DNA of 64,000 nt from Bradyrhizobium sp. CCBAU 53421 (GTDB lineage: Bacteria > Pseudomonadota > Alphaproteobacteria > Rhizobiales > Xanthobacteraceae). Numbering within the stretch: position 1 is the stretch's first letter; every line of letters starts with the position of its first letter. The notes beneath the pieces are model-generated. The model was not told the DNA's origin. It saw only the letters and a program-made list of their open reading frames with translations, and ran no database searches. Shown here piece by piece: positions 60,233-64,000 of this stretch. The position numbers were made by a program, and so were the translations under genes. The stretch is from NCBI RefSeq assembly GCF_015291625.1, contig NZ_CP030047.1, positions 248,001-312,000 on the forward strand. Reading direction: 5' to 3'.

Positions 60233-60308
60233 GCCGCAATAGCTCAGTTGGTAGAGCACGTCATTCGTAATGACGGGGTCGGGGGTTCGAGTCCCTCTTG
60301 CGGCACCA
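60233..60308 (+). tRNA. tRNA-Thr (CGT)
   Basis: The acceptor stem GCCGCAA pairs with TTGCGGC, followed by A and an encoded CCA. The D-arm is GCTC-AGTTGGTA-GAGC; the anticodon arm CGTCA-TTCGTAA-TGACG has anticodon CGT at 60266-60268; the T-arm holds GGTTCGAGTCC. All stems fold. Confidence 0.96.
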
Positions 60309-60364: not shown

Positions 60365-60685
60365 TCGGGCGGCACAATCTGCATATGAGCGCAATCGCAA
60401 CCGCGCCGCCTGTTGCGGGCCCGACTGCTGTTGGCGACTGGCGCCGCCACCCGATGCGTCAACGCACCGCACAACCCCGGCGGGAGACGCGAAAACACCA
60501 AGAAAACGCCACCAAGCCAAGTAGTATCGATGTGGTGCACACCCGCGTCGAGACGGCGTGGTATTCAGATAGGTGACGATGCGCGTGGCGAGGTCAATGC
60601 GCGCGACGATCCGTAACACGCGTCACGCATCAGCCGGTAGTGACACGAACGCCACGCGAGCCGCACCTAACGCGCAAGCCGCCTA
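60365..60685 (-). pseudogene. Decayed, internally deleted copy of the membrane-protein gene at 63530
   Basis: Read on the minus strand this stretch is a ruined relative of the gene at 63530-64000. DNA blocks align in order: 60368-60510 with about 63541-63693, then 60511-60598 with about 63765-63854, then 60599-60685 with about 63855-63930; about 70 bases of the better copy are missing. In one block, TCAGATAGGTGACGATG (60565-60581) differs by one base from its match at 63820. Fragments such as VHHIDTTW and VFLVFSRLPPGLCGAL match VHHVDTNW and VFFVLAHLVSGLRGVL in the other copy, in different frames. It cannot encode a protein. Confidence 0.85.
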
Positions 60686-60798: not shown

Positions 60799-63429
60799 AT
60801 GACGTTGGGACCAAAGGATCGCGATAGCGAGTTTCAACTACAGCTTGCCTTTCTGAGGGAGTTCCAGCGCGCCCATAACCGCCCGCTCCGCGTCCTGCAT
60901 ATCGGCAATATCGCCAACAACGCCTACAACAATGCCTTGATTCAGCGCCGCTTCGGAATCGAGGCGGATGTCATTTGCTATAACTACTATCACGTCATGG
61001 GTTGCCCCGAGTGGGAGGCCGCAAGCTTCGACGGCAACGTCGACAACATGTTCCCGGATTGGTGGGCCACCGAGTTGGGTGGTTGGCGGCGACCGGACTG
61101 GTTTGTGCAAGGCCCCGTTCTCGATTGCCTCGCGTATCTTCGTGCGAAGAACGCCGGCGACAGCGGAGCTGCAGCATTTTTTTGGACGCTGCTGCAGGCG
61201 AGATATTGGGAGATGCTTGATGGCATCGCTGCTGCAGAGAGTCGCGTCCGTCCACCGATGCCGGCGCATCTGGCAGACACGATCTCGATTGCGCGCGATT
61301 TTCGGGACTTCCAGTCGAGTCAGGCATCCAGAATCCCGCAGCCGCTCGATCAGCCGGCCATCGTCCTGCCAGAGGCGGCCATCGAGCCTGAGTCTGCACT
61401 CTCCCCCATTTCGCCGGCCTCGTCGAAGGCAGTCTCACCAAATCCGCAGATCGAGCAAAGCCGGGTTCTCGCCGACGAATATCCGAATCCCGAAGGACCA
61501 GGCCGCCTCGTCTCGACCTATCGCTCCTTGCTTGCGAAGTACGTCTTTGTTCATTTGCGGCGTGAGGCGGAAACCGGCGTGGTCGCCGGGCCGAGCTTGG
61601 CGGTCGCCATCTGGCGAAGCCAGAGACGCAGCCGTGGCTTGCCACGCTTTGGATTCGAGTTTCCCGCGGATGTCTTCACGATGCCGGATCTCGTCACCGC
61701 GACGCCGGCTGCAAGCCAAAGCCATGAGTATGTAGCGTCTCGCCGTTCGCGGTCAGCGAATCCCGAAGGACCTGGCCGCCTCACATCGATCTATCGAGCC
61801 TTGCTGGCGAAGTACGTATTTGTTCATCTGCGGCGTGAGGCGGAAACCGGGGTTGTCTCCGGGTCGAGTTTGGCGGTCGCAATTTGGCGAAGTCAGAGGC
61901 GCAGCCGCGGCTTGCCGCGCTTCGGCTTCGAATTTCCCGCTGAGGTGTTCACGACGCCGGATCCTGACGCCGCGACGCCGGTTGCAGGCGAAAGCAATGA
62001 ACATGGGACCCTTCGCGATCTGTCGTCAGCAAGTCCCAAAGGACCAAGCTACCTCACATCGGTCTATCGCTCTTTACTGACGAAATATGTGTTTGTTCAT
62101 TTGCGGCGTGAGGCGAAAACCGGCGTTGCCGCCTGGTCGAGCTTGGCGGTCGCGTTTTGGCGAAGTCAGCGGCGCAGCCGCGGCTTGCCGCGCTTTGGCT
62201 TCGAGTTTCCCGCTGATGCCTTCACGACACCGGACCCCGACGTCGCGGCGCCAGTTGCAAGCGAAAGCAACGTCTTCACGATCCCAAATCCTGACACCGT
62301 GATGCCGGCGGCAAGCAGCGCGGCTGCTGACGTCGGATCATCGGTCGTTCCCGTGGAGATCCGCCCGGAGATCATCGATCGCCCGGAGTTTCGCTATTTC
62401 GAAAAATACGGCAAGGGGGAGGATCGAAACGCCGCGCAACGTGCGGCACTGCTTGGAGACGTGCTGCGGCAGTTCACGGATTATCCGGCAGAAGCCCTGG
62501 TTTCCGTCGAAGCCTTCGCATCCACGGTTGCCAATGAGTTCGCCGACATCTTGGAGCAATACGACATCATTCAGGGTTATTCGATCGACGGGTTCATTCC
62601 GTTCATCAACGGATTCAAGAATTACACGTGTTACGAACACGGAACGTTGCGTGAGGTGCCCTTTGAGAGGAGCTACAATGGCATTCTTTGTTCGGCGGCG
62701 TACAAGAATGCAGCTTTTTCGTTCGTGACCAATTCGGACGTGCTGCCGTCCGTGCAGCGGCTGAAATTGAAGAGGGAGCGGACCGTTTACCTTCCGCATG
62801 CCTTCGACGACGAAAAGATTTCAACCTTTCGGGCAGGGCTCAAGATCCCGAAGCGGAACTCCAACATCACCACGTTCTTTAGCCCGACGCGCCACCACTG
62901 GCACGCTGCACCCGCTTCGATGCAGAAGGGCAATAATCTCTTCTTGAGAGCGGCCGCGCAGGTTGCGCAAACGGATCGCGATTTTCGTATCATCCTGGTC
63001 GAGTGGGGCGTTGATGTTCACCGAAGCAAGGACCTCATTCAGGAACTCGGAATTGAAGACATGGTTTCGTGGATACCGTCGTTGAACAAGGCGGAGCTGC
63101 GCCAGCTGTACTGCTCGAGTGACGTCGTCGTCGATCAGTTCAGGATCCCGGCGATCGGCGGAGTGACCTTTGAGGCAATGGCGCTCGGCCGCCGCGTCAT
63201 CACAAATCTCGATGAAACCCAATCGGCGGAGTTCTTTGGAGCGGTGCCGCCCTGCCTGGCCGCCGACAGCGTCGAGACGTGCGCGGCCCGGATTCTTGAG
63301 GTTCTAGACGATCCGCTGGACGACAATCGCCGCGGCGATGCCGCGCGTCTGTGGTTCGAAAAATGTCATTCCGCGCAACGCGTCGTCGCGCTTCAACTGG
63401 CGGCCTATCAGACGATTTGCGCCGCCTAG
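60799..63429 (+). CDS. Glycosyltransferase (GT-B) with three internal 91-residue repeats
   Basis: An 876-residue protein. Residues 30-170 look like the N-terminal half of a GT-B enzyme (RPLRVLHIGNIANNAYNNALIQRRFGIEADVICYNYYH). Residues 521-876 are the rest: YEHGTLREVPF, SFVTNSDVL, a nucleotide-sugar domain with ITTFFSPTRHHWH, and GGVTFEAMALGRRVITNLDE with the donor-binding glutamate. Between lie a Pro/Ser linker and three repeats, residues 230-320, 321-411 and 412-495. The DNA looks less GC-rich than its neighbours. It probably makes a surface or extracellular polysaccharide. The ATG at 60799 follows GGGGA. Confidence 0.85.
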   Translation: MTLGPKDRDSEFQLQLAFLREFQRAHNRPLRVLHIGNIANNAYNNALIQRRFGIEADVICYNYYHVMGCPEWEAASFDGNVDNMFPDWWATELGGWRRPDWFVQGPVLDCLAYLRAKNAGDSGAAAFFWTLLQARYWEMLDGIAAAESRVRPPMPAHLADTISIARDFRDFQSSQASRIPQPLDQPAIVLPEAAIEPESALSPISPASSKAVSPNPQIEQSRVLADEYPNPEGPGRLVSTYRSLLAKYVFVHLRREAETGVVAGPSLAVAIWRSQRRSRGLPRFGFEFPADVFTMPDLVTATPAASQSHEYVASRRSRSANPEGPGRLTSIYRALLAKYVFVHLRREAETGVVSGSSLAVAIWRSQRRSRGLPRFGFEFPAEVFTTPDPDAATPVAGESNEHGTLRDLSSASPKGPSYLTSVYRSLLTKYVFVHLRREAKTGVAAWSSLAVAFWRSQRRSRGLPRFGFEFPADAFTTPDPDVAAPVASESNVFTIPNPDTVMPAASSAAADVGSSVVPVEIRPEIIDRPEFRYFEKYGKGEDRNAAQRAALLGDVLRQFTDYPAEALVSVEAFASTVANEFADILEQYDIIQGYSIDGFIPFINGFKNYTCYEHGTLREVPFERSYNGILCSAAYKNAAFSFVTNSDVLPSVQRLKLKRERTVYLPHAFDDEKISTFRAGLKIPKRNSNITTFFSPTRHHWHAAPASMQKGNNLFLRAAAQVAQTDRDFRIILVEWGVDVHRSKDLIQELGIEDMVSWIPSLNKAELRQLYCSSDVVVDQFRIPAIGGVTFEAMALGRRVITNLDETQSAEFFGAVPPCLAADSVETCAARILEVLDDPLDDNRRGDAARLWFEKCHSAQRVVALQLAAYQTICAA
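61486..62283 (+). repeat. Three tandem 273-bp repeats within the glycosyltransferase gene
   Basis: Units begin at 61486, 61759 and 62032. Each encodes YRSLLAKYVFVHLRREAETG, then SLAVAIWRSQRRSRG and LPRFGFEFPADVF, followed by a variable tail. The core is nearly identical in all three, while tails and third-codon bases differ, so the expansion is fairly recent but not new. A partial tail unit (VFTIPNPDT) follows at 62274. Confidence 0.92.
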
Positions 63430-63533: not shown

Positions 63534-64000
63534 ATGCGCGCGCCGCACAGTCCGCTCATGATCGCAATCGCGATCAGTCCGGCGGCCGCGAGCCCGGTTG
63601 CCCAGATCCGGTTGGCGAGCGCCGTCGCCATGCCGTGCGCGATCAGGACGCCGCGCAATCCCGATACGAGATGGGCGAGCACGAAGAAGACGCCGAGTGC
63701 ATAGTGCGGCACCAGGCGAATGCTCCAGGCGTCGTGGATCAGGCCGGTCGGCGCGCCCGATGCCCAGTCCCAATTGGTGTCGACGTGGTGCACGGCCCGC
63801 GCCGAGACGAATGCGGAGTTCAGATGGGTGACGATGAACGCCGCGAGGTAGACGCCGGAGCCGATCTGAAACACGCGGAATGCGTCCGCCGGCCCTGAGC
63901 TCCAGCGCCAGGCGAGCCGCACGCCAACGGCGACCTGGAACAGCATCAAGGCGACAAGGATGGGCTCGATCACGGACGATCGATAGACCGTGCGGCCCAA
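63530..64000 (-). CDS. Membrane protein with conserved histidines, partial
   Basis: The frame is open to the window end, so its N-terminus may lie beyond; 156 residues are visible. It has about five membrane segments: IEPILVALMLFQVAVGVRLAW, FQIGSGVYLAAFIVTHLNSAFV, VPHYALGVFFVLAHLVSGLRGVL and IWATGLAAAGLIAIAIMSGL. Histidines in VTHLNS, VHHVDTNW, VPHYALG and LAHLVSG suggest a heme-binding cytochrome b-like fold. No named family is certain. A ruined relative lies at 60365-60685, on the far side of the glycosyltransferase gene. Confidence 0.72.
   Translation of the reverse strand: MGRTVYRSSVIEPILVALMLFQVAVGVRLAWRWSSGPADAFRVFQIGSGVYLAAFIVTHLNSAFVSARAVHHVDTNWDWASGAPTGLIHDAWSIRLVPHYALGVFFVLAHLVSGLRGVLIAHGMATALANRIWATGLAAAGLIAIAIMSGLCGARI

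Follow-up and report, generated by a model that had tools for sequence, protein, structure and literature searches.

Glycosyltransferases of the GT-B fold with a module in the N-terminal half are already known, and related surface-sugar systems include proteins with parts of variable length. A basic N-terminal-domain helix is found in two membrane-associated GT-B enzymes, PglH (ruler helix) and PimA (helix 2); according to the available part of one report, PglH uses this helix both to attach to the membrane and to count sugars, with three basic residues of the helix binding the pyrophosphate of the lipid-linked glycan and limiting additions to three (PMC5792488). In E. coli O9a, the length of the WbdD coiled coil sets O-antigen chain length (PMC5082667, in part), and in Staphylococcus TarM, as excerpted, a HUB domain inserted in the N-terminal half of a GT-B enzyme is associated with trimerisation (PMC9837562). 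The gene described here lies in a 64,000-nucleotide window (positions 248,001 to 312,000 of contig NZ_CP030047.1) of the 9.26-Mb, single-contig genome of Bradyrhizobium sp. CCBAU 53421 and encodes an 876-residue GT-B glycosyltransferase (60799..63429 of the window, plus strand, as are all features below unless stated). Its new aspect is a native insert, predicted to lie on the acceptor side of the enzyme, that has been multiplied into an array of variable unit number. No description of repeats in this glycosyltransferase was recognised among the matches listed in searches of open PubMed Central (PMC) papers, and Blr2358, the subject of PMC8707904, is a different enzyme, judging from the portion of that article available.

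Three direct copies at 273-nucleotide spacing were detected by two repeat-finding programs, of which TRF gave 2.9 copies with a score of 1059 at 61484-62270 and the other gave copies at 61484-61756, 61757-62029, and 62030-62302, with 100, 82, and 73% DNA identity to the first. In frame and head to tail, these correspond to unit 1 (residues 230-320; 61486..61758, with core 61486-61677 and linker 61678-61758), unit 2 (residues 321-411; 61759..62031, core 61759-61950, linker 61951-62031), and unit 3 (residues 412-502; 62032..62304, core 62032-62223, linker 62224-62304). Each 91-residue unit comprises a conserved 64-residue core and a variable 27-residue linker. Amino-acid identities of the three unit pairs are 70/91, 59/91, and 63/91 (65-77%) over the whole unit and 59/66, 52/66, and 52/66 over the first 66 residues; WRSQRRSRGLPRFGFEFP is identical in all three units, and the linkers are rich in proline, threonine, serine, and alanine (14-15 of 27 residues). 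The best Pfam match to the array region was DUF7536 at E 0.14, and a search of NCBIfam and Pfam returned a weak match to the UpxY antiterminator (E 0.0016; 18.4 bits against a cut-off of 100). Both were taken as chance, and the candidate of a known domain in the unit was dropped. A preliminary description had reported three 91-residue tandem repeats with an arginine- and aromatic-rich core that matches no known domain, all of which was borne out, the core being basic and aromatic; the near-identity it ascribed to the units applies to the core and not to the whole unit, and the array end it gave, 62283, is 21 bases short of the in-frame end at 62304.

The same description had called the protein a GT-B glycosyltransferase, and this is confirmed by the presence of two Rossmann-like domains and by a PF00534 match in the C-terminal domain (residues 709-851; 62923..63351) at 42.7 bits against the Pfam cut-off of 26.4. 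The E-x7-E motif is common in GT4 enzymes, though not universal. At its site the family conserves QF..PA.GGV.FE (residues 779-792 of P0001), and among the 115 family proteins with a locatable site the first glutamate is replaced by proline in 110, alanine in 4, and lysine in 1; the enzyme is therefore named GT4-like rather than classical GT4. When the family profile was compared with Protein Data Bank sequences, a single chain was matched, in the C-terminal domain only.

The repeats had been placed between the two GT-B domains, which is contradicted by the predicted models. In the AlphaFold model, strands 1-3 of the N-terminal Rossmann domain (residues 31-35, 55-61, and 102-105; 31-105 overall, 60889..61113) precede the insert, and the domain resumes past the array with four helices (529-537, 545-558, 564-580, and 582-585) and strand 4 (590-594), together residues 529-594 (62383..62580). 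The array is thus predicted to sit inside the acceptor-side, N-terminal domain, between strands 3 and 4, behind a disordered stretch at residues 180-229 (61336..61485; pLDDT <50 at 180-242). Each unit is modelled, at low to moderate confidence and from alignments of 60 and 50 of the 120 homologues listed, as a helical hairpin on a disordered tether, with low-confidence helices at 234-259 and 267-278 in unit 1, 327-350 and 358-369 in unit 2, and 418-441 and 449-459 in unit 3. The unit is therefore predicted to be a small, basic, aromatic-rich two-helix hairpin with a flexible tether.

The distribution of the unit shows it to be native to a glycosyltransferase subfamily. Among the 120 homologues listed of 536 in total, the close group holds four units in 2 proteins, three in 12 (the window's own included), two in 4, and one in 1, with the truncated P0024 set apart from these counts. 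A single diverged unit occupies the same alignment place in 13 more distant proteins (P0020-P0023 and P0025-P0033), and profile comparison matched the unit to the insert of P0026-P0033 with 99.5% probability. Because these more distant relatives hold one copy at the same place, the array is a tandem expansion of a native insert; the preliminary view that the insertion is foreign to its enzyme family is not supported, given these single copies and the precedent of the HUB domain in what is available of the TarM report (PMC9837562). Homology with the insert of the wider family was not established, as the corresponding profile comparisons were not significant (probability 0.1% and 7%); a W...RR.R pattern occurs in 48 of 109 family inserts, array proteins among them. 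A search with the array region scored 7995 candidates (lengths 0.55-1.75 times the query) and listed 26 proteins, all members of the same subfamily and none of another protein kind.

Among the matches listed and genomes searched, the multiplied state was found only in Bradyrhizobium or metagenome sequences. The array gene is present in 14 of the 265 Bradyrhizobium genomes searched, with two units in 2, four in 1, and three in 11, the last including the window's genome and G256. Draws of 391 genomes from the family and 397 from the order gave 3 and 1 matches, all in the window's genus; in the rows shown for these draws, scoring covered only 15-16 of some 50-170 first-look candidates, such that weak single copies may be missed. 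In G256 (locus L044, contig C66), a TAG within the array breaks the reading frame into pieces of 414 and 509 residues; this genome was left out of the analyses of unit identity, dN/dS, and linker length.

Unit number varies from 1 to 4 among homologues, which answers the check across strains proposed at the outset. On a tree of 26 proteins, built with the array left out of the alignment and excluding P0024 and P0025-P0033, the best topology needs at least 8 changes in unit number (minimum possible 3; mean of shuffles 11.8). Branch support varies, being good for 5 of 20 inner branches; when the sets of proteins with 3, 1, 2, and 4 units are taken singly, these five branches by themselves require 4, 2, 4, and 2 changes, respectively. 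Four proteins with identical glycosyltransferase cores, P0006, P0016, P0017, and P0019, have 3, 2, 2, and 1 units, respectively, and in P0017 and P0019 the last unit resembles an earlier unit at its start and the third at its end. Assembly collapse may account for the differences in P0016, P0017, and P0019 because these lie on metagenome contigs of only 4.8-32 kb. As the sole source of copy-number change it was rejected, since P0018 (2 units, 6.36-Mb contig) and P0008 (3 units, 8.55-Mb contig) differ on megabase contigs while forming one small tree group (support 89/85). Firmer cases also come from genomes: G001 and G087 have 2 and 3 units although their two enzyme parts are 99.5 and 97.8% identical in DNA, and G123, G253, and G074 have 2, 3, and 4 units at 95-98%.

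Comparison of individual cores suggests that first units mostly descend vertically, last units less so, and that inner units turn over: first units have their nearest relative among another genome's first or last units in 12 of 13 cases, and last units in 8 of 13. Cores of one genome share a mean DNA identity of 85.2%; across genomes the mean is 84.9% for cores in equal positions and 83.4% for those in different ones. These values do not support strong concerted evolution, which was set aside, and do support partial homogenisation; units 1 and 2 of G250 are 95.3% alike.

Throughout this turnover the cores are under purifying selection at every position. In 13 genomes the two enzyme parts have dN/dS values of 0.10 and 0.12; at the same unit position in 10 three-unit genomes, the value is 0.21 for cores against 0.84 for linkers of equal length. 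By position, it is 0.178 for first, 0.197 for middle, and 0.243 for last cores, and 23 of 64 core positions are invariant across 38 units of 13 genomes. Linker spacing is largely kept and linker sequence is nearly free: 22 of 22 linkers in 11 genomes have 27 residues, all 3 in two further genomes have 14, and a linker of 25 occurs once each in P0002 and P0004, both from metagenomes. Shared descent via duplication can explain part of this constancy.

The account favoured here, tentatively and at somewhat less than an even chance, is that the array forms a multivalent arm contacting the membrane or its lipid head groups. It draws first on the wider family, in which charge and pattern were analysed for 109 of the 120 listed proteins, the 11 without both landmarks being dropped. 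Among 77 wider relatives, the insert has a median charge of +5.3 per 100 residues vs -0.9 for the remainder of the protein and is the more basic part in 76, and a hydrophobic stretch occurs in 13 inserts and 1 remainder, which fits a membrane-side element. In P0113, P0110, P0087, P0047, and P0115, the insert in the same slot has highly hydrophobic, membrane-spanning-like stretches (19-residue hydropathy 2.0-2.45), as if one slot were used for differing ways of membrane contact across the wider relatives. In the array-bearing and near proteins themselves, the cores are basic (median +6; 57 cores of P0001-P0023), as are the helices of the unit (z +3 and +4).

Several results weigh against this account. 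In the 32 array-bearing and near proteins, the whole insert has a median charge of -0.5 per 100 residues vs -1.0 for the rest and is the more basic in 20, the difference being small because the linkers are slightly acidic (median -2; 34 linkers). Hydrophobic moments of the helices are not above those of shuffles, 22-40% of which reach them, and an amphipathic-helix anchor was not kept as a firm claim. The charge seen across the family may not carry over to the unit because the profile similarity between the unit and the wider family's insert is not significant, and hairpin confidence is low to moderate. With the array-bearing insert as a whole hardly more basic than the remainder and its moments unremarkable, the membrane case for this enzyme is inferred from relatives. 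PglH and PimA differ in form: their element is one helix of the fold, whereas the Bradyrhizobium array is a long disordered insert with 1-4 tandem copies of a tethered two-helix unit.

If the multivalent arm exists, the array would secure this monotopic protein by its acceptor side to the inner face of the cytoplasmic membrane, where the hairpins would bind lipid head groups and perhaps a polyprenyl-linked glycan through its pyrophosphate. A run of hairpins would strengthen the hold and extend the reach, and the enzyme may take part in surface-polysaccharide assembly. Gain and loss of units keeps the reading frame, and homologous recombination of one conserved core with another is its most likely route. 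Of the functions first suggested for the repeats (a spacer, a membrane- or polymer-surface binder, or a length-varying part), a surface binder fits the family-wide charge best, and none is proved. Taken as a whole, that early interpretation keeps its enzyme class, its lack of a known domain, its varying unit number, and its basic aromatic core, and loses its placement and the foreignness of the insert to the family.

Tolerated expansion is an unlikely alternative, in which a flexible insert has been duplicated harmlessly by recombination, one unit does the work, and the number of bystanders has no effect. Frequent copy-number change among near relatives, predicted disorder on both sides of the insert, and the almost free evolution of the linkers (dN/dS 0.84) are all as it would predict, but bystander units would not be expected to show about equal constraint on cores at all three positions (0.18-0.24), the linker length common to 11 genomes, or a distribution in which 12 of 14 array loci have three or four units and none has one.

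It is rather unlikely that the hairpins instead bind each other or a partner in the polysaccharide machinery, by analogy with the TarM HUB. That domain (DUF1975) is a single module with a Pfam family, whereas the unit is tandem, varies in copy number, and is without a Pfam match, DUF7536 being all that the array gives; in addition, the annotated locus has no partner gene beside the array gene, which is flanked by a polysaccharide deacetylase gene and one for a membrane protein that matches no Pfam family.

A molecular ruler, in which the number of arginine-rich hairpins sets the distance of the active site from the membrane anchor of the glycan and hence the number of sugars added, appears improbable. 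The limit of three additions imposed by the PglH helix offers a parallel, and that helix (about residues 61-88 of domain 1-168) would lie near the slot of the array, judging from residue numbers in the accessible part of the report (PMC5792488). WbdD offers another, as a length-variable part in surface-polysaccharide assembly (PMC5082667, in part), and near relatives of the array gene differ in unit number while linker length is held as the sequence drifts. The coiled coil of the kinase-methyltransferase WbdD is, however, continuous and trimeric, whereas the low-confidence monomer model of this glycosyltransferase gives short helices of about 24 and 11 residues parted by stretches of pLDDT <50, that is, separate hairpins on disordered linkers, with neither a long continuous coiled coil nor a rigid rod. 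The array gene also stands alone at about 0.31 Mb, some 3 Mb from the Wzt-type cluster at 3.47 Mb. A version tuned by recombination, in which hairpin number sets reach or processivity on a lipid-linked glycan and in-frame gain or loss retunes surface-sugar length with the gene unbroken, is distinctly improbable; if true, it would be a form of cell-surface variation distinct from on/off phase variation.

The window's genome encodes two paralogues (C1:3473667-3475511 and 3478525-3479994), whose neighbours are an ABC transporter with a Wzt_C domain, an ATP-grasp protein, a methyltransferase, a DegT aminotransferase, and further glycosyltransferases, a neighbourhood that points to surface polysaccharide. 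Both belong to the same subfamily and lie in Wzt-type clusters; they share its N- and C-terminal enzyme parts, the matched pieces being 50-62% and 41-52% identical. Their insert is shorter, and no copy of the unit was detected in P0061.

The same tRNA-Thr(CGT), at 60233..60308 in the window, is found no more than about 0.6 kb from the array gene at each of the 14 loci examined. The array gene has a G+C content of 59.3% vs 65.0% for the window. The downstream membrane gene (355 residues, minus strand) has a partial, decayed copy between the tRNA and the glycosyltransferase gene, with 73.9% identity over 153 nucleotides between 60517-60666 and 63770-63920; pieces of such a copy are also present in array loci L033-L035, L037, L038, and L040, and it looks like a trace of the gene's arrival beside the tRNA. 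Genomes without the array gene have other sequence after the same tRNA-Thr. The glycosyltransferase, membrane gene, and deacetylase together look like a variable insertion at the tRNA because, in G098 (L053), the downstream transporter-side region starts about 170 bases past it.

These proteins offer a natural series of 1, 2, 3, and 4 copies of a contact-like module in almost the same enzyme, with cores selected throughout, and make the dependence of GT-B membrane hold, reach, and processivity on contact number directly testable. Surface sugars of Bradyrhizobium matter for nodulation, and if copy number sets glycan length, the array would give evolution a simple dial with which to adjust the cell surface.
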